Assembly: GCA_905182995.1 (NCBI GenBank)
Contig: CAJJDP010000007.1
Coordinates: 372,049 to 436,048, forward strand
Length of the DNA stretch: 64,000 nt
Origin: Paramecium octaurelia
Taxonomy: Eukaryota > Ciliophora > Oligohymenophorea > Peniculida > Parameciidae
Direction of reading: 5' to 3'
The notes below the pieces were generated by a model. It did not search any database, was not told where the DNA came from, and saw only the letters and a program-made list of their open reading frames with translations. A program made the position numbers and the translations under genes. Positions 1,755 to 61,195 of the stretch are shown piece by piece (within the stretch, counting starts at the first letter, position 1; every line of letters starts with the position of its first letter).

Positions 1755-3033
1755 ATGCAATCCGAAGACAATGAGTGGTAAAAAGTGGTTCAGACCACCA
1801 CCAAAATAGATTAATAAATCAAGAATATCAAATTGAGATTATAGTCAGCATTGACATAGCTTATCATTCAATCCGAAGAAAATAATAAAATTAGCAATCC
1901 TGAACCAATCCTTCCAAAAACCAATGTTCCTTTGATCATACAACATACCAGCAGATCTATTGAAAAGAGAGACAAACCTGCAATCAGACAGTGTGCATCT
2001 AAATCTCCTATTAGAACCCCTGAAACTACGGACTGCCCATCTCCAATTTCATCAATAGCTCATAATTCCCTTCTAAGAATGTAATTGAAGGCAGCAGAAG
2101 TGTTAAGTCCAAAATATCAAAATATATCGGATAGATTCCATATAGGCAAATTTTTGGGTAAAGGCAAATTTAGTGATGTATTTTAAGCATAGTAAAATAC
2201 TAATTTAAATTAGAGAGAAATCATCAAAAGTGTTAGTGGCTTTAAAAGTAATTCAAAAGAGTGTTATCAGCAAATATAAAATGGAGGCCCAATTGGCCCA
2301 TGAAATAAAAATTTAGAGTTATCTCAATCATCCAAATATACTTAAACTATATGGTGTATTCTAAGAATAAACTAAAGTATTTAATTGAAGATTATTAGAT
2401 TGTTTTAATTTTAGAATATGCACCAGATGGAGAGTTATACAAGTTGCTTAAGAAACAACCAAATCGTAGATTCAGTGAAAATAAAGCTGGAAACTATATT
2501 GCATAGATTGTGGAAGGGATTTCGTACATGCATAAAATGAAAGTGATTCATAGAGATATCAAACCAGAAAACATATTAATTAGTCTAGTAATAAAGATGA
2601 ATTAAATTAGTAATTTCTAAAAATAGCTGATTTTGGATTAGCTACATATTCACCAGAATCTAAACCCAGGTAATCCTTTTGCGGCACAATTGATTATATG
2701 TCTCCAGAGATAGCTTCTGGGTAAGACTATGATCACTCAGTTGACTTGTGGTCGATAGGCATCCTAGCGTATGAATTGACTACAGGAACCACACCTTTTT
2801 ATTAATCATCTAAAGAAGATACCATGAGGAAGATCATAGAAGGTCGAGTTGATTTCCCTAAATATGTTTCGAATGAATTATAAGATTTTTCAAAGTGCTG
2901 TTTGAGGAAGGATCCCTCATAAAGGTTGAGATTGGAATAGATGGCTGTTCATAAATGGATTCAAATGAATCATTAGGCTGGGGGATAGTATGATCGAATG
3001 CTTGTTTAATAATTGGTAACAATACTGAAATGA
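1755..3033 (+). CDS. Aurora-like Ser/Thr protein kinase
   Basis: About 403 residues in four exons; introns of 22, 22 and 23 nt restore the frame. An N-terminal tail of about 120 polar residues with SPIRTPE-like sites precedes the kinase domain: GKFLGKGKFSDVF loop, ALKV lysine, EYAPDGELYKLL hinge, [22 protein letters not shown], and FCGTIDYMSPEIASG, the Aurora-style activation segment. The EYAP hinge and the GTIDYMSPE block point to the Aurora family, which acts in mitosis and ciliary disassembly. It could be another AGC-related kinase, since the distinction rests on short motifs. The next gene starts 45 bases after its stop on the same strand. Confidence 0.82.
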
Positions 3034-3078
3034 TTTATGTGATTATGTGAAAATTTGTTTTAATTTTATTATAAATTA

Positions 3079-7094
<4,016 letters not shown>

Positions 7095-9001: not shown

Positions 9002-12000
9002 TCAATTTTAATCATCAACAATAAATTCACCAATAGCATTTTACATTTATAATAAATTTTTCGACGGTCTCCAAATTTTAATCAGTTTATCTTATCCTCC
9101 ACTTATCACTAAATGGTTGTCTTGGATAACGTGCAATGCATTAATTTATTGCTAGAATTCTAATAAATAATACATTTGAAGCAGTAATTTCATGAAGTAA
9201 TTGGAATTTCCTTTCCTCATTAACTTTGATGGCCCTGACATTACCATCCTTACAAGATGTGTAAATCAATTTCAAACTTTTATCAACTAAACATAGCCTT
9301 AAAATGTACTTGCTAAAGCAGTTATCAGATCTTTATGTATGCTATCATTTGTAGTAGATTCTAAACCTGTTTGCTGTTTCCAAAGTAACATTCTTTTGCT
9401 CAAAGAACTATTTAATCTTCATATATTTATACCAACTCACTATATAGTCCCCAAAAGAGGCAACTCCTGTTACCTTATCCAATTAAGGTGGCTATAACTA
9501 TTAAATTTGATTATATTTATTTTTATTAAAGGGTATTCTTTTAGTATAATGCTTTAATGTCCCATAAATCAACTCAGAATTCTCATCAGAACCATAAATG
9601 CTTAAGATATCTGAACCCTTTTCAAATTCATACAAAATACTTAAATAATGTTATTATATACTTATTTTATCTGGAATCCCAAATATTCAAAGCATTAGAA
9701 TTAATAGACTTACCTGCTGCAACCAATAATCCATTGATACTAGTAATACATTTGATTTCTTCTATTGAAGATTTAAGTAATCCTTTGCACATTAGTGTTA
9801 ATGGATCATATAAAGATATTTGAGATCCATGTGAAACAGCAAAGGCATCTCGATTTGCCCAATAATATATGGATCTACAGTGATTACTTTGATCTATTGT
9901 ACTGATAAGTTATTGAGATTCTACATCCCACACTTTAAATTATTTGTATTATCCAGAGCACAATATGTTGTCTTTTGTATATAATGATAGGATGGGTTAA
10001 TCATGACCTTAAAGAGTTTTCACAATACTAAAATCGATATTAATATTTACTCATAATTAATGATTTCTTATGATGAATTTAACTACTCAGCTATCCAATA
10101 TTAAGAAACCGAACTTCTAACTCTCATACTTGATCCTAATTACCCAAACGATTTTACATGACTCAAGGCTAAAGGTAGTTGTTATTCTGATTTTAATTCT
10201 TTGCTAATTGAATTTCTAAATGTATGATATGATTATGAATGCTATAATTATTATCCTAATCCAATTGACTTATCTTTTTGCTATTTATTGATTTATTCAC
10301 TATAAAAATTCTTGTAGTAATCCAATTCTATGCTTATTGTTCTATATTAATTTTACAATGCCTACAATTTTCTTTTATATTCATTTATCTACCTTTTCAA
10401 ATCATCTATAGGTGTATTTTATCTAATAGATTTTTTTATGGGACTAGGTTTTGCATGAAGAAGTTCTTGATTTGTTTAATTTAACTCCTCTATTTATTGA
10501 GCGTATAAAGTCATTTAATAATGATCTTTGACCCAATTATCAATAACATATCTGAATGATCTGGTACACCAATTATGTAAATCTTTGAAGTACTGATTAG
10601 TTAATACTATAGTATAGTAATCATTTGCTTTAGATGATATCACTCTATAATCATCAATTTTTTAGAGCTAGAATTCTATTGTTTCTGAGATATTTTCTCT
10701 TTTTTACTAAAAATCATTTAATTCTAACTCATATTATTGTACACTCTCAATGCTACAAGCTGCATTGCTTTATGTCATGTCAAATTGAAGTTAATCAATT
10801 TTAATTTGTAATGAACAAATCTTTGCCTCAATTTGTCTTAATTCTTCTTAGATTTCTTCTAACTTAGAGTATTCCTTAGTTATTTATTCTTCAGCCTATT
10901 CACCAAGTATTAATTCTGAAAACAAGTCATCTATTTACTTTTCAAAAGTGTCATATTATAATGATTTATTTGGATTATATCGATTGTGTTATTTGATAAT
11001 TAATTTTTCATTTTTTTGTTTTTATAATTCATCCTCCTTTCGTTTTAATAAAACATCTTTTTTAGTATTATCATTTTTCAATTTACTTACCAAAGTATCT
11101 TATTATATTTTTAATTTTTTTGCATATATTAACTCTTTATGTTTTTACTCCTTGTCTTTTATGTATTTCTCATTTTCTTATTTCATTTTCTTAATCAAAT
11201 CAACTTTCTATTTTTTCATTTGTTCAATATTAGTTCTAAGTTCTTTCACTTAAGTTTCCTAATCATCCAATTTCTTTTACAATTATTTTGAGGTCAATTC
11301 TTTTTATCTCATATCCAATATTTTAGTTTCGTATTCTGATATTTTCAATTTAAGTTAATTCATTTAAGCAGAATCCTATTTAGTATTGAGTTATTTTTAT
11401 AGTTTAGCCTTCTCTTCTTCTAAAATAGATATTTATTTTAAATAGTTTTGCTTATCATCTGATAACAATTAAATTGTCTCTATCTTTATTTTATCCAATT
11501 CTTGAAGCTGATACTCCTATTCTTCAATTTGAAGGTCCTTCTGTATTATTTCAGAGTCATCTAACTCAAAATCGTCATCTATTTAATCTACATCTTATTT
11601 TTTTTTTTCTAATCTCATTAATTCATGTTGCTTTTATCTCAATAATTTTTGATCTCTGCGTGCTTCCTGTACTAAGTTATGTATCATACTAAAATACTTT
11701 TATCAATTAATCATTACTAGATTGTAATAGAAATATTCTTTGTTCATGTTCTATGACTACATTCTTTAAATTAGCAATTTCATTATAATAAGTATCCATT
11801 TGTTAATCCTCATTGAAATTAAATTAGATATTATATTTTTATAGAATTCTAAAATCAAATATATAATCTTACTTTTTTGCATCTTGAAATTGTTTCATAT
11901 TTTAGTCTCTTTGTTTCTTTGCTTTGTAACCTTCTAGCATACTTTCACTTAATCCTTTTTACGAATTCTACAATTCTCTTTACAAATTATTTAATTGCTT

Positions 12001-43452: not shown

Positions 43453-43708
43453 TTAAAATATAATTTGAATCTAAATAACTAATATACGTTTTACTTTGGT
43501 TAATGAAAAACATACTCATTTATCTTCTAATTTAATATTTTATAGGTTCTTTTGGAAGTTTGAAAAGTACATAAGTAATTTGTTGATTTATATATCTAAG
43601 CAAATGTATTTCTGTCTTATTTAACAAATATATTAAAAAAGGAGTTGATAATTACAACTTTTGATATATCTAAGAAAGAAACTTTATTTGTTCAAACTTG
43701 AAACATAA

Positions 43709-43951
43709 ATGAAGAGTGTCAAAATCATAGGTCTATCATTAGTGACATTTTTCTGTTTCTAATATGTAATCATTATATCTTAGAATTAAATCCTTTACTA
43801 TTAAATATGCAACTGGAATAATTATTTATTTTAGGATTGCTCAGAGAATTAATATAACTAATATTTTAAATCCGCATAAAAAGAAGAAACAATTTGTTTA
43901 AAATTTGTTAAATAAAGTGTATAAATATTTTTATTTGTTACACCTATTTGA
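43709..43951 (+). CDS. Possible small secreted protein
   Basis: 80-codon ORF: MKSVKIIGLSLVTFFCFQYV looks like a signal peptide, followed by a Gln/Asn/Tyr-rich chain with three Cys. It may be spliced further downstream, since coding-like sequence continues to about 44090. Not recognised. Confidence 0.3.
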
Positions 43952-44257
43952 ATATATATTTATCAGAAAATAAAAGTGAGATTTCAGAAATTTAGTGAAT
44001 TAATAAATAATTTAACAAATATTTTGAATGATTAGAAATTTAAGGAGTTAGCGAGGCAAAAAAGATTAATCTCTAAAAAAAGACTAGATAATAATGTGTA
44101 AGGAAGAAACTGAATATAAATTGTATAAATTATTAGAAGATTGGATTGTTAATGAGGAGAAAGTTAAAGTTACAGAATTAATTAAGTTTGAAGGAATTAA
44201 AAGAAATAAGTAGTAATACAAATGCTAAGGACATATGACATTTGATTGCTAAAATAA
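43952..44257. other. Region before the PARP gene, partly coding-like
   Basis: Holds a 62-codon ORF at 44094-44282 (MCKEETEYKLYKLLEDW) in a different frame from the PARP gene. It could be an upstream exon, but I found no intron that joins it without hitting a TGA. Otherwise AT-rich. Confidence 0.35.
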
Positions 44258-47200
44258 ATGGTATCTATAATTAGTAATTTGAGGATTTTAATTGAAGGAG
44301 TGTCAATCATTAATTCTGATGAAACCCTCTATATTGTAGACTTAGAAATATATTCATAAGCAATTCGTAGTTTAATAAACGAGGAGAAAGCAGTAATCGA
44401 GAGAAACTAAAAATATTATGATGATAATGATGACAATGAGGATGAGCTGCCTAAAAAAAAATCAAAGAAAAATATCAAATAAAATGAAGAATTTAACGCG
44501 AATTAAGTTGAGGAAGATGAAGAATCAAATGATTCATATTCTTCAGCCGAAGAAGATCCAGTTCCAAAGAAATAAAGATTATCAAGAAAAAAGGAAGAAA
44601 AAGATTAAAAGAAAGGAAAATAAAAAAGCAAAAAATTTAGAGATATATATAAAAACCTAAAAAAAGAGTGTGCTTAATTTGAAGGAACTGAAGATCATTT
44701 TTTAGATCGTCTAAGTATAAAAGCCAACAATAAGGAAGTGATTCGAGCAGCATAAACAGGAAATAAGAAATTAATGGAAGATATATTTGCAAAAAAATGG
44801 AAAATATCTTGTGCCTAAGATAGTTGGGGACCAGAATTAGATATAACACCAGTTGAAATTTTATTAAAAAGACAAGATAAAGAATTATTATCATATTATC
44901 TATAAAACAGAAGTAAAGTTGTTTATGGTCATAATCAACCTTGCACATTAAAAGAAATTAATACAGGCTATAACAATAGATATGCATATGGTGTAAGATT
45001 ACGAAAAGTTGCTCTAGGCAGAGGAAATAGGGAGGGAAATAATGCATTTGTCTATGATTTAGGTAATGATAAGCCGGATTATTAATTTTAAAAATTATTG
45101 GAAATTGAAACCGATCCTTAATTGTATGAATTATTTTTCCTTCATTGCAAAAATGAAAATTATGAAAGTTAATTAATTGAAAATGTTTCAAAGGCTGTTA
45201 GATGTGGAAATTGGAAGACTGCTAAATTTTTGATTAATTACTCTATAGCAAATAATGAAGATGGATATGGATTTAATTATCTTCATCATGATGCTTTTGG
45301 TGATAATTTTAGTACCTATAAATTGGCATAAATTAAAAAGATTTCAATTACAAAAAAAACATCCAACGATTTTTTAATCACACCTATTCATTGTGCCTGT
45401 ATCAATCCATCAGAATAGTTTTTGAAATATTTCTTGGAGTAAACTATGGAATACAATTGTTAAGATGAAATAGGCAGAAAACCTGTACACTATGCAGCTG
45501 CATCTTAAACTTCTAATTGTTTAGAATATTTATTGGCTAATGGAGTTGATGGAAGAGAAGGTGATAAATATTTAATGACACCTGTAATGATAGCAGCAAA
45601 ATATGGGAGAGCACATAATATAAAACTATTACTTAATACCAATCTTAAGGGTAAAAATAAAGAAGGAAATAGTGCCATTCATTTGGCTAGTTAGAATGGA
45701 CATACTGAATGTGTTAAAATACTCATTGAAAATGGTGTATTAATAAATATTGCAGGTAAAAATAGAATGACTCCCTTGCACTTTGCTTGTGCATATAATC
45801 ATATGGAATTAGTAGAATACTTACTTGATGAAGGGGCCAGAATTAATTCTAAAGATAAGTTTGGTAGAACTCCCTTGATTATGGCTGCAAGAAATGGAAA
45901 TCTAACTATTTTATCTAAATTAATTTATTATGGAGCAGATGTAACTATTAGTGATTCATCAAAAAATAGTGCTATTCATCATGCTGCTGCTTATGGTTTC
46001 ATAGAATGTATTGAAAATCTAATTGAAGTAAATGTTGATTAAAATTAATTCAATTCATGGAAATTGACTCCTTTAAATGTAGCATTAGCTAAGAATCATT
46101 TTGGCATAGTTAAATCTTTACTCAAATATGAAAGTACAGATGTTAATTGCATAGACGATGATGGATTAACTTTGATAGGTAGCATGGTAAAGCAATTCAA
46201 CTCTACTCTAGAACAATATGAATTTATCTAATTCCTTATCACAGAGAAAAAGGCTGATATTAATATCTAAGACAAATATGGAAAAACATGCATACAACAT
46301 GCATTGCTTTGTAGATAATCGGAGTTATAAGTTGAATTAGTAAAATTGTTATTAGAGAATGGAGCTGATATAAACATCAAAGATAAGGATGGAAGAACTT
46401 GTTTATTGCATATTCTGGGTAGTTAGTAATCTTAAATTCAAACAGAACTTGTTAAATTACTCTTGTAAAAAGGGGCAAATATTAATTCTTAAGAAAAAGA
46501 AAATGGTTAATCAGGCTTCTCTCTTTGTTTAAAATAAAGAAATTATTCCCTGATTTAGGAACTTTTAAACGTTACAGAAGTTGATGTCAATCTAGTTAAT
46601 AATGAAGACAAAACATTTTTGCATATTATGATTGAAAACCAATTTTATTATGATCCCTAAGCAATCTAAATTTTTGAGATAATTTTAAATAAAATAAAGT
46701 CTTCATTAATCAACTTTTATGATCAGGATGGATTTGTACCATTATTAAGATTAGTTCATAACTTTGTTTAAAGTATAGCATCAAGAATCCAATAAGACTT
46801 TGACTAAAAAGTTGAAAAGCGTAAAAAAGAAATTTGGGATTAAATTGTATAGGAATATAAATCTAAGGAGGAAGAATTTAAAAACATTTTGTAAAATAAT
46901 CCTTCAGCTAATCCAATTTATGCTTTCTAAAAAGAAATTGAATAAAGATTAGCAAAAGCTAAATAAATTTGTCATGCCTCAAGATATTCATATGAGAAAA
47001 TTTATGCGTAGGTAGGATTAACTTAGGAAGAAGTTCAGGAATTTAATTCGTAGAAAGTTGATGATGGGTATAGACATTAGAACAATTTTTTTGAAACTAT
47101 GAAGCTGTTAATTTCTAAAGGAGCTGATACAGCAGTAAGAGTAATTAAGTAAAAATGGTGCAGAGATCTAGAAAAGGAAACCTCCTCATTATAAAATAGT

Positions 47201-50200
47201 AATGTATTTCATATAGCCTTTTAATTCTTGCCTAGTGTTTCCTTTGTTACAGAACTTTAGAATTATTTCCCCAAATATTTACTATATGAACATGATATAT
47301 TTGGTTAGCCAGTCCACTATTTCTTTTAAAATTACAAATAATATTAGGTAATTTTGGAGAGGTCTAAGAAGGAGACTTCTGAAATATTTTTTTAATACTT
47401 GATCACTTTAGGGCTAGACTTTACAGAAAAGAACTCAGTTGGCAATACTCCAACTTTGATGATTGCTTATAAGTTTGAAGAGGGCTATGTTCCATTGTTA
47501 GAAAAACTTGTGAGTTTAGGAGGCAAAATAAATGATGTTAATAATTCAAATGTGGTGCCTTTGCATAAATTCGTATCTTAATCAAACATAAAATATGTCA
47601 AGTCTTTGGTTTAGAAATTTAAATTGGATCCTAATTATTAAGATATGAATGGAAGGACAGCGTTGCATTATGCTACCAATTTCAGTAATCCAAATGCGAA
47701 TGCCAGTTTTTAAATGGAATAGATCTTAATCAAAAGTGGAGCCAAATGCAATATCAGAGACATATATAATAGAACTCCTTTGTTTTATGCATTTACCAAA
47801 TTTGATAATCCTAAAAGTACACAAGAAATAGATCCTTTTGAATCAGTTTCATCCTTATTAGCTTATGATGAATGTGAGGTCAATGCTCTAGATATATATG
47901 GAAGATCCCCTTTACATTATGCTGCATTAAGAGGCAGTGCCATTTCAGGTAGATATATGATTAAAATGGGGGCAAAAATTGATGAGCCTGACAATTTTAA
48001 TAACACTCCTTTGGCATATGCATTTTTTGCACATTCAAATTTTAGTACAATGCTTATTGATAATAAAGCAAATGTTAATAAACTAATCTCTATCATTAGT
48101 GAAACTGATTTCAAAGCAGAGAAATATAAAATTTACTAGGAATAAGTTAGAAACGATAGAGAAGTAGATAGACTTATGAAATTAGAAGATTAAGAAATAA
48201 ACACAAAACTGTTAAAGTTGAAATAGGAGGAGAGAAGTAAATAATTGGAGAAAATCTAAAAAGAAATGTAATAAGATGATAATAAAAATGATTAAATTTC
48301 AGAAGAATCTGATAATGATGGATAAACTGATAATAAAATTAGAGAATAGTAGCCTATTATATTTAGAAGAAGACGTAAAGATAAAATTATTTAGAGGAAG
48401 AAAATTATTGAATAGCTGGTTTAAGAAAAATTAAAAAATGATATAGACATACCTTAACATTTACATAATCAATTAGCAACAGGAAAATATAGTTATTTCT
48501 CATAAGCTATAAAATTTGGTTGGCAAGGAGTGGCATATCTATTAATTAGTGATGGATATGAATTTGTCAAGGCCATTCAAGATGCAATTAATGCAAATCA
48601 ATTTTAATTAGTGCTAACTCTATTAATGAAAGTGAAAAATATAACAGATGTGCAAAGATTAGATGAAAAAGGATAAAATTTATTTCATTTATTTGCAAAA
48701 TATTCATCGAGTGTTAATTTTGATCTCAAATAGGAAATTATTGAGGAATTTGAAGCTAAGCAAATTAGTCCATACTTATAGGATATTAACTTAAAAACTC
48801 CCTTCCATTATGCAGCTGAAAATCAAGATTAATAATTGATAAATTACTTCCTTTTAAAAAGGAAATGCGATCCAAATATTATGGATTCAACATAAAACAA
48901 TCCATTTACTATTTTACTCTAAAAAAATTACTCTTAAAATTTTTATAATTTTATTGAGAATGGATTGAAAATAGATGTATAGTTTCAAGTCCTTGCTAAT
49001 AATAAACTTATGAAACCATTTATGTTTTTAGTAAATTATAGAAAATTAATTAATGTTGAAGTGTTATAAACCTATATCAAATATGGAGTTGACATAAACG
49101 AATAAAATGAGGAATGCGAAACCATTGTAACAATGGCAATTCAAAGTAATAATATAAGTCTATTAAAATTCATCTTGGATTAACCCAGTTTTAAAAAGGA
49201 GTCTCATGCAATAGATTAAAATGGTAAAAGTCCAATCCATCATGCTGTCTTACCATTAGAATTCGGATCTTATGAAAACTTAAATATTTTGAGATTATTG
49301 ACTCCGATATTTGATTATAACACCTAAGATAATAAAGGATTAACACCCTTGGATTACGCTTTGATTTTTGATGCTTAAATTATGAAAGATGAACTTTTAA
49401 GTTTAAATGCTCATCATACTAGAAGTTTAAGGTAGTAGAGAATGCCAACTTCAATTATATCAACTGCTTTGTGGCCAGATTAGGTATTAGATTTTGAAGA
49501 GGATGCACATTAATACTAAGGATTAATGAACATGCAATTAGAACCAGAAATTGATAATAAAGAGATTGTTGACAAATCAGCTATCATTACAAAAGGAGAT
49601 TTAATTGTTTATGAAGATCCAGAATATGGACTATTCTAATGTTTGATGTCAAAAGTTGATATAGTGAATAAGAATTTCCATAAGAATGTATTCTATAAAA
49701 TGCAAATTCTATTGGATTAAAATAGGAATAATTACATTTTATTTACAAAATGGGGTTAAATTGGGGAAGAAGGTTAATTTTAAATGACTCCTTTTGAAAA
49801 TTTAGAGGCTACTATAAAAGAATACTGCAAGATTTTCTCAGCAAAAACAGGGGGAAATAATTGGAAATTAATCAAAAGAGGCGAACAAGAATTTGAGAAG
49901 AAACCAGGAAAATATCAATTAATGCAATTTAGCAACAATGTCAGTTATAAAACATTCTTAAAGCCTTTTGATTTAAGCGATAAATCTCCATATCCTAAGT
50001 GTTTATTACATTAAAGTATTTAAACTGTGATTGAACAATTTTCACAGGTAAAATTGTATTAGTAGGAATTATAAAACTATCATTTTGACACAAGTTTTGT
50101 TCCATTGGAAAAATTAAATAAAACCGTAATTTTAAAAGCCAAAGAATATTTATTAGAACTTAAGGAAATAGTAAAAGAACTTGAAGAATATATGAAATTA

Positions 50201-51202
50201 ACAGACCAAGATCTAAAGAGATTGTAACAATTTTACTCTGAGATCAACGAGAAATCAGCTAGATATTATGAACTTATACCCTAAACTTAAATGAGATAAA
50301 ATGTGCTACCTTTACTGGAAAACGATAAAAACATTAATTAATAATTATAATTAGTTGAGGTACTCCTCAATGTTGAACTCTCAGTTAAAATACTTCTAGG
50401 AGCTCATTTTAAGGCAGATACTATTCATCCATTAGCATATTGTTTTAATGCATTAAATATTAAAATGCTTACATTAACAAAGGATGATTTAGAATATAAG
50501 ATGATAAAGACATATATGGGAAAAACTTAAACTGTAAAAATCTCAAACATTTTTGCTATTGAAAGGAAAGGAGAGGCGAAAAAATTTGAGTAATTTAATA
50601 ATGGGCCTAGAATGTTGCTATGGCATGGCTCAAAAATATCAAATTTCATTAGTTTGATGGCACTTGGATTGAAAAGTAATATAGCAATTTTATTGATTAG
50701 TTGCACCTTCTTGGGCTGTAAATACAGGAGCTTTGTATGGAAAAGGAATCTATTTTGCAGACCAATTTGCCAAGAGCTATAACTATACTACTGATTCTAC
50801 AATCAGATAAGGCAATAATAATTGGAGATCTCAATTGTAATATCAAAATCTTCAAAAATACAGATATTTATTATTATGTGAGGTGAGTTGTACGAATCAA
50901 GTGGATCTTTATAATTATCACTAATAAGATATCAGTACCTACTTTAGTAATCAATTTTGTTATAATTAGAACCTGAAATAACTTTAAGGGTTGTAGGATC
51001 CTAAGGTCCAGATTCCATGTCTTAAATTAAATTACCAAACGGATGTGTTGTTCCCATAGGTAATCTCGTTTCTTAGCCTTTTCCTGATCATCTGAAAGAA
51101 AAATTAGGGCATTAAAATGGGTTTAAGACTGCATAAACTGAATATATAATTTATGACGAAAGCAGAGTGAGAATTAGATATTTGGTCTAAATTGAACAGT
51201 GA
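44258..51202 (+). CDS. Giant ankyrin-repeat, WGR and PARP-domain protein
   Basis: About 2,298 residues; only two introns seen, both near the 3' end (25 and 23 nt). After an acidic and Lys-rich N-terminus come many ankyrin repeats (for example NRMTPLHFACAYNHMELVEY, GKTCIQHALLC, GRSPLHYAALRGS, GKSPIHHAVLP) in two or three blocks split by charged linkers. A WGR domain follows at about 49650-49980 (ILFTKWGQIGEEGQF), then the PARP helical region and catalytic domain with LLWHGSKISNF, GALYGKGIYFAD and TEYIIYDESRVRIRYLV. His, Tyr and Glu of the ADP-ribosyl transfer triad are all there, so poly-ADP-ribosylation is likely. Ankyrins recall tankyrase, but WGR recalls PARP1-3; the mix is unusual. The exact start is uncertain. 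Confidence 0.9.
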
Positions 51203-58647: not shown

Positions 58648-60948
58648 TCAAAAATAATGAGAAAATTAAGCATCATTTCTTGATTCTAAAATTTTACATA
58701 ACAAATCTCTCAAGTTAGCTTTTGTAACAGGTTTTTCTATGGCTCCAAACATTCCTACTCTTTTGTAGACTTCTAATTGCTCAGGCGTTTATCTATTTCC
58801 TGTACAAGCAACTATTTTTAATGATTTATCAATATCTAATAGTCTATTTGCAGTTTCCATTCCATCCATAACAGGCATCTCAATATCTAAAAAGATGATT
58901 TTATATTGGTTAAAATCCTTAATTCTTTGGCGACATTTTTTAATTGCAATTTCACCAGATATAGCAGAATCACAAGTTAAAAATAACTATTCTAATATGT
59001 ATTAAAGGACAATTATGTTAAATTCATTATCATCAACGATTAGAATAGGGGGCTGTTTTTGGGAAGGGTCTGACCAACTGTTGATTTGTTCAATAATCAA
59101 ATTAGATTAAGTTGTGGATTTTCTTTGGTAGGATTTCTCATTATCAGTATTAAAAGGTAATAGGCGATTTGAAGATAATAGGTTGGATGAATTGACTCTC
59201 AGATTATATTTTTTGATATCTTAATTACTTTAAATTTGAATTCCTTGACAATTTTCACATGAGGCTTGTCTGACAGCAACAGCAAAATCTTATGAAGCCT
59301 ACCTTAAACTCTGGGTGTTCAAAAAATGAGATTCAGGTAATTTCTGAATTTCTTAAGCAGCCATTTCAGAAGACTCTGATAGATCCTCATCTGAAGGTTT
59401 TTGATTAAATATTGAAAATGAAAATGTAGATCCATTTCCATATTATGATTAAACAGAGATCCCTTCATTATTAGATGATAATAATTTTGATAATTCATTG
59501 CTGATTAATAATCCTAAACCTATTCCATTAGGATTTACATCCCTATTTGCAAGATCCTCAACTCTTGAAAATTCTTAAAATAAAGATTATAAATTCTCTG
59601 GTTTGATTCCCAAACCTGAATCAGTGACTTAAATAGTAAATGTCGAACTGGTTTTTTGATAATCACAATTGATAACAATTATCTTTTTAGCTTCTGAATA
59701 TTTAATAGCATTACTTAATAAATTCAGAATTACTTACCTGATTCTATTTTTGTCGCTATTAACAAATTAATTAATTTGTGAATTAGTACAATAATTTAGG
59801 ATTATTTTAAGCTCTTTTTTTTCTTTTTGAATATCAAATATTGAGATTGTTTTTTCTATTAACCGTTTTAGATTAAACTTTCGAAATACTAATCTGATTT
59901 TGTTGTTCTATATTTAAGCCGAATCTAAAATATCATTAACCAAATTCAAGAGCAATCTACAAGAATTAAGCGAGGGCTTTAAGTAACGGTTGAATAAGTA
60001 AGTGTCTATTTATTCTCTCAAACAAAGCTACATATTTATAATTGCATTTAATGGTGTTCTCATATCATGAGAAACTTTGCTCAAGGTCTTCATCATTTTT
60101 TTAGTACGTTCATCTGCAATATCAATCTGATTCTAATTTAATTTATTTTTTTTTTATTTTTTGACAACCAGATAAAATAGTTGTTTTTTTTAATTGATCC
60201 AATTACAATATTTATAAACATGATCATTACCCAAATACACCTTCTTCACTATTATTACAGAATCTGTAAAAGTATCAAATTTCTACATTGACCACTCTTT
60301 ATTATTCGTTTTTAGTTGAGAAAGCGCATGTTTAAATTCATAAGTATTTTTATTATTAATGAATTAGGGATATATTCCAACTTTTAGTGGTTCTCTATAA
60401 GTAAGAATATTATCGACATAATGATCCTATGAAATAATCACTTACTCCTTCTGTATTTATGCGAATCTTTCTTCATCATATACTGGATTCAAATTGTTAT
60501 CCAATATTACATAAATATTTGATGTGATTTATTTAATTATATCTTGTGCTTGATTTAAATTATAGGATTGTTTCTTAAAGAGAAAAAGCAATAAAAAGTA
60601 GGAGAGACAATTTCTAATTATTCCGGTTGGCAAATAATCAAGGTTGGCTGATGTTATTGATACTAAATGTATAGCAAATGCTATAGGAATCAATAATTTA
60701 GTTTTGGTCTAGTTTAGTTTGAAAATGCACACAATTTGAATTCCTATATGGACCATCCAATTTTGATACAATAATTAAGAAATAAATAGGATCCATGCTA
60801 ATTTAAATATGTTCAGAGTCATTTTAATTGAGGAATTACTACATAATTATTCAGCAATGAAGAGAATTAGGTGAAATCCAACTGAAGATAATCCCATTAT
60901 CAAATATTTGATTTCATCTGTAAAGTAAAATTACAAGTGTAGTATCAT
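58648..60948 (-). CDS. Hybrid sensor histidine kinase
   Basis: 766 residues, intronless. The N-terminal 150 residues hold three or four hydrophobic segments (LGLSSVGFHLILFIA-like, LLIPIAFAIHLVSIT, NCLSYFLLLFLF). A PAS-sized soluble region comes next (ITSNIYVILDNNLNPVYDE). The HisKA H-box is SKVSHDMRTPLNAI, with the phospho-His near residue 291. The HATPase domain has NRIRQVILNLLSNAIKY (N box), DSGLGIKPENL (G1) and NGIGLGLLISNEL (G2). The receiver domain has ILIVDDNEFN, FLDIEMPVMDG with the phospho-Asp, and a Lys in AIEKPVTK. It should autophosphorylate on His and pass phosphate to its own Asp. The signal sensed is unknown. Confidence 0.93.
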
Positions 60949-61195
60949 ACTGTCGATTGTCAACACTATTTATAATATTTAATCGTCACTTAACATTTAA
61001 TTAAATACTTAATCAATTAATATAGAAATATTAAGGACCTTTATCAATAAATAATATTTTGGTTATAATAAATTTGATCCAATCTAATTTATACGATGAC
61101 TGGAATATTGACCTAAACTTGAATTTTAGAAATTGAGTTTTATTTTAAATTATCATAATTTTTTAAAAAGAAAAAGACTTAATTTTCGCTGCAAA

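Follow-up and report, generated by a model that had tools for sequence, protein, structure and literature searches.

The locus and its gene model

The window, that is the whole stretch of 64,000 nucleotides of Paramecium octaurelia DNA analysed in this work, has a GC content of 24-31%, and its long frames stay open only when TAA and TAG code for glutamine. Read with the ciliate code (NCBI table 6), positions 44258-51202 of the + strand give after splicing one 2298-residue protein from three exons. The frame is open from 44246/44258 to 50794 and its first in-frame ATG, at 44258, is the putative start codon. The spliced frame contains 131 TAA or TAG codons read as Gln and a single TGA, the terminal one (51200-51202). 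The original prediction of one protein of about 2,300 residues stands in this respect, but the stretch is interrupted by two introns which had not been described, both of them inside the catalytic domain. The introns were deduced from frame and homology, the removal of a GT...AG segment regaining the frame in each case. The low GC content, the glutamine reading of TAA and TAG and the intron lengths of 23-25 nt agree with DNA of a Paramecium macronucleus. The gene is composed as follows.

44258..50675, + strand: exon 1, an open frame under table 6, with the N-terminal linker, all ankyrin blocks, the WGR domain, the helical regulatory domain and the start of the catalytic domain
50676-50700, + strand: intron GTAATATAGCAATTTTATTGATTAG, 25 nt (GTAATA...TTAG); splicing links LGLK to IAPSWAVNTGALYGKGIYFAD, as in PARP2 GLRIAP...TGYMFGKGIYFAD
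50701..50946, + strand: exon 2, the central part of the catalytic domain, carrying Y2157, K2164, S2165 and Y2168
50947-50969, + strand: intron GTAATCAATTTTGTTATAATTAG, 23 nt (GTAATC...TTAG); its removal regains the frame to the final exon (E2279) and the alignment with PARP1/2 is continuous
50970..51202, + strand: exon 3, the end of the catalytic domain and the TGA stop

The stretch 43700-44257 was examined for a further exon; two of its small frames were scanned and gave no Pfam match. The GC content of this region is 21.7%, versus 27.7% in exon 1; the low value suggests intergenic DNA, and the region was left out of the gene model. Just 5' of the PARP start, short + strand frames are found at 43709-44257, one of which opens with the signal-peptide-like MKSVKIIGLSLVTFFCF; they may represent a small gene or be non-coding.

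Elsewhere in the window a CHD/Mi-2-like chromatin remodeller frame is present at 3149-6499 (+), with a PHD finger, a weak chromodomain, SNF2 and helicase C domains. A glutamine-rich frame at 10023-11687 (-) has a KIF21A-like domain match of 36.9 bits (cut-off 33.1), and the frame at 58651-61047 (-), in which HisKA, HATPase and receiver domains are combined, is a hybrid histidine kinase. Hybrid histidine kinases are an unusual type of signalling protein in eukaryotes, though they are known from ciliates.

Domain architecture and class of the protein

The spliced protein carries, from the N-terminus, a charged linker, three ankyrin blocks, a WGR domain, the helical regulatory domain (HD) and the PARP catalytic domain (ART), located as listed.

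44405..44647, + strand: charged N-terminal linker with acidic runs and the basic clusters PKKKSKK and PKKQRLSRKK (composition)
45380..46492, + strand: first ankyrin block, aa 375-745, strongest repeats at aa 467-598 (Pfam and segments of a home-made profile)
47642..48022, + strand: second ankyrin block, aa 1129-1255 (home-made profile segments)
48080..48517, + strand: charged coil-like linker with the basic cluster RRRRKDKIIQRKK (composition)
48782..49432, + strand: third ankyrin block, aa 1509-1725, divergent and adjoining the WGR domain (home-made profile and PDB ankyrin matches)
49637..49873, + strand: WGR domain, aa 1794-1872 (Pfam E 2.5e-18, 66.4 bits, cut-off 22)
50000..50446, + strand: helical regulatory domain (PARP_reg, PRD/HD), aa 1915-2063 (Pfam E 7.9e-18, 65.3 bits, cut-off 26.8)
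50492..51196, + strand: PARP catalytic domain, aa 2079-2297, split by the two introns (Pfam E 2.5e-36, 125.5 bits, cut-off 26.7)

The ankyrin repeats gave many Pfam matches (Ank_2, E 4.1e-100), and the home-made ankyrin profile found 18 segments in the protein and 0-2 in shuffled copies (n=20). As some of the seeds of this profile came from the PARP protein itself, Pfam is the independent evidence for the ankyrins. The predicted union of ankyrin blocks, WGR, helical regulatory domain and PARP in one chain was thus borne out by Pfam matches, all far above the curated cut-offs. The WGR domain, on whose detection at about 49650-49980 the original prediction had been made to depend, was matched at 49637-49873, close to that estimate, and among solved structures in PDB it matched PARP3 (6.7e-11) and PARP2 (4.3e-10). 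Neither SAM, BRCT, PADR1 nor a PARP zinc finger was reported by Pfam in the spliced protein at E values up to 1, and an NCBIfam search of the protein gave no match. AlphaFold runs without alignment returned mean pLDDT values of 32 and 40, the models being useless. On composition, the basic clusters PKKKSKK and PKKQRLSRKK of the N-terminal linker may be NLS-like.

The Pfam domains, together with the ankyrin segments compared to shuffled copies, show that the protein is no random open frame and that its ankyrin and PARP parts share one frame. Two adjoining genes, one for ankyrins and one for a PARP, joined by read-through, are a very improbable explanation of the locus, given that a TGA-free frame runs from 44258 to beyond the HD, with the ankyrin, WGR and HD parts covered by it uninterrupted, that the ankyrins reach about aa 1725 while the WGR domain begins at aa 1794, and that an equivalent fusion is published in other species.

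All three residues of the predicted HYE triad are present in the spliced protein (H2123, Y2157 and E2279), and K2164, S2165 and Y2168 near the triad are also conserved. Over its full length the WGR-HD-ART part can be aligned to human PARP2 (8.5e-44, 33% identity). The catalytic domain alone matches PARP1 at 1.2e-23, PARP2 at 1.1e-22, PARP3 at 8.4e-14 and the tankyrases at about 0.07. By its catalytic domain the predicted enzyme is of the PARP1/2 type, not a tankyrase; it had been placed between tankyrases and PARP1-3, and with ankyrins, WGR and HD in one chain this placing holds. Since the triad and the nearby K2164, S2165 and Y2168 are kept, competence for ADP-ribose transfer is likely, and the conserved triad glutamate makes elongation of poly(ADP-ribose) chains plausible. 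A true tankyrase could be suspected from the many ankyrin repeats with a C-terminal PARP domain, and comparable protist proteins were formerly reported as tankyrases (PMC2964712). The lack of a SAM match at E values up to 1, the presence of WGR and HD, and the distance of the tankyrase catalytic domains as compared to PARP1 refute this assignment and leave it a negligible chance.

The architecture is in fact a known one. Citri et al. (2010, PMC2964712) defined PARP Clade 1A as ankyrin, WGR, PRD and PARP, with members including Paramecium tetraurelia, Dictyostelium and fungi, and argue that its ankyrins were gained independently of the tankyrases. Otto et al. (2005, PMC1266365) described the combination of ankyrin, WGR and PARP for Dictyostelium and C. 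elegans, and Perina et al. (2014, PMC4245714) listed further species under the name 'Clade 1-ank'. The combination had been suggested to be special; this is not upheld, the class having been known since 2010, also from Paramecium. The protein has N-terminal ankyrins, WGR, PARP_reg and a PARP1-like catalytic domain with HYE, as Clade 1A does, and Pfam reported none of the zinc fingers, PADR1 or BRCT of PARP1 proper (Clade 1B). Judged by architecture and pairwise scores, membership in Clade 1A ('ankyrin-type Clade 1') is near certain, and the gene very probably encodes one of the published Paramecium Clade 1A proteins or a close orthologue. The analysis confirms a complete gene of this class and gives its exon structure.

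No relatives turned up in viral contigs, whether these were scanned with the C-terminal part or with two alignments, or in bacterial genomes scanned with the full alignment. A scan of bacterial genomes with the catalytic core recovered three WGR-PARPs (L001-L003), which were used solely for residue comparison. All three have YGR at the WGR motif. In L003 (Armatimonadetes, 2984-4784) the WGR-PARP frame is directly followed by a frame which by eye is macrodomain-like; the two would be a writer/eraser pair. In L001, a gut Mediterraneibacter contig, the WGR-PARP-like protein (31-1461) adjoins relaxase-like and peptidase-like frames, which suggests that the gene is in a mobile element.

WGR residues and the proposed function

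In PARP2 the residues W151, K130, K183 and Y201 serve detection of the 5' phosphate, R153 and N127 contact the 3' side and connect to the helical domain, and N129 relays the signal; mutation of R153, N127 or N129 ends DNA-dependent activity (PMC8190142). In the Paramecium protein the WGR motif reads W1832-G1833-Q1834, the glutamine being encoded by the TAA at 49757-49759. In the alignment, R153 is thus replaced by Q1834, N127 by H1808 and K130 by V1811, while W1832, K1863, Y1886 and N1810 are kept at the positions of W151, K183, Y201 and N129. Human PARP2 and PARP3 and the bacterial L001-L003 all have N, K and R in the three replaced columns. These replacements make DNA-coupled activation less certain than the list of domains implies. 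The enzyme had been proposed to be DNA-break-responsive: WGR, HD and the example of PME-5 of C. elegans make this plausible, but the loss of the arginine and the asparagine, both needed by PARP2 for DNA-dependent activation, weakens it, and the link from DNA breaks to activity may have been loosened or rewired.

The WGR domain could even be uncoupled from catalysis, with partners bound to the ankyrins switching or placing the enzyme in a tankyrase-like manner, for a role in chromatin or signalling and not as a break sensor. The three replaced residues, the effect of R153 or N127 loss in PARP2 (PMC8190142) and the ankyrin blocks, which span more than half of the chain, argue for it. We nevertheless consider it unlikely, as the equivalents of W151, K183, Y201 and N129 are conserved, the HD still scores 65 bits, the residue changes could offset one another, and related ankyrin-type PARPs have a link to DNA damage (PMC2964712).

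Our preferred reading, which we hold with good confidence, is a Clade 1A PARP that would be nuclear and chromatin-bound, docking through its ankyrins and sensing DNA ends with its WGR domain. PME-5, the best-studied protein with ankyrin, WGR and PRD, is induced by ionising radiation (PMC2491638) and was reported to be nuclear and chromatin-associated (PMC2964712). In Tetrahymena several PARPs co-purify with H2A/H2B (PMC6562869). By analogy, a function in DNA damage or chromatin is likely also for the Paramecium protein. The protein would be nuclear, and its ankyrin arrays would recruit it to chromatin partners or substrates. The WGR domain would read a 5'-phosphorylated DNA end, with partly altered chemistry, and the HD would restrain the ART until engaged. 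With autoinhibition relieved, the ART would go on to attach poly(ADP-ribose) to itself and its neighbours at damaged or processed chromatin.

HPF1 binding by PARP1 requires Leu985, Ser1012, Leu1013 and Trp1014, among others, which PARP3 does not have (PMC7884425). The Paramecium protein ends in RYLVQIEQ, short of the HPF1-docking tail, and in the alignment carries A2276 at the position of Leu985. For both reasons partnering of the HPF1 type is unlikely, and the enzyme would be expected to work without such a partner, as PARP3 does.

The original prediction also linked the gene to the genome rearrangement of ciliates, and a developmental PARP acting at the many breaks that arise as the new macronucleus forms has to be weighed. 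Ciliates do break their genome in a programmed way, seven of the 16 PARPs of Oxytricha are expressed preferentially in macronuclear development (PMC5312943), and in Tetrahymena PARP expression is timed across the life cycle (PMC6562869). The architecture is however also found in Dictyostelium, fungi and C. elegans, which have no rearrangement of the ciliate type (PMC2964712, PMC4245714), so that it is not itself an adaptation to this process; we regard so specialised a role as quite unlikely. If true, the link would bear on how ciliates handle many scheduled breaks. More speculative still, and something of a long shot, is a Clade 1A PARP in which replacement of the WGR arginine and its partner asparagine has taken activation off the DNA-break allostery of PARP1/2, the ankyrin arrays both placing and switching the enzyme, perhaps on developing macronuclear chromatin. 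The residue change in the WGR domain is a specific and testable point; should the R-to-Q change prove to be fixed in Paramecium, it would reveal to what extent coupling to DNA breaks can drift with the WGR and HD fold kept.

Comparison with known PARPs

In architecture the Paramecium protein could not be told apart from Clade 1A, which likewise has ankyrins followed by WGR, PRD and a PARP domain with HYE, the catalytic domain being PARP1-like and not tankyrase-like. PME-5 (Ce.pARTc) of C. elegans, likened here by its published description, also combines ankyrin, WGR, regulatory and PARP domains and has a DNA-damage link; it differs in being an animal protein, whose clade placement was unclear to Citri et al. 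(PMC2964712).

Human PARP2 (ARTD2) shares the WGR-HD-ART order, the HYE triad and the equivalents of W151, K183, Y201 and N129. It has no ankyrin repeats, whereas the Paramecium protein has Q, H and V in place of R153, N127 and K130, carries inserts in both HD and ART, and lacks the C-terminal HPF1-docking tail. Human PARP3 likewise is without the C-terminal HPF1-docking residues and its WGR domain is the best single solved match, but it has no ankyrin repeats and a more distant catalytic domain (8.4e-14). Tankyrases 1 and 2 (Clade 4) share the large ankyrin arrays and the C-terminal PARP domain, and differ by the presence of SAM, the absence of WGR and HD, and a very distant catalytic domain (E about 0.07).
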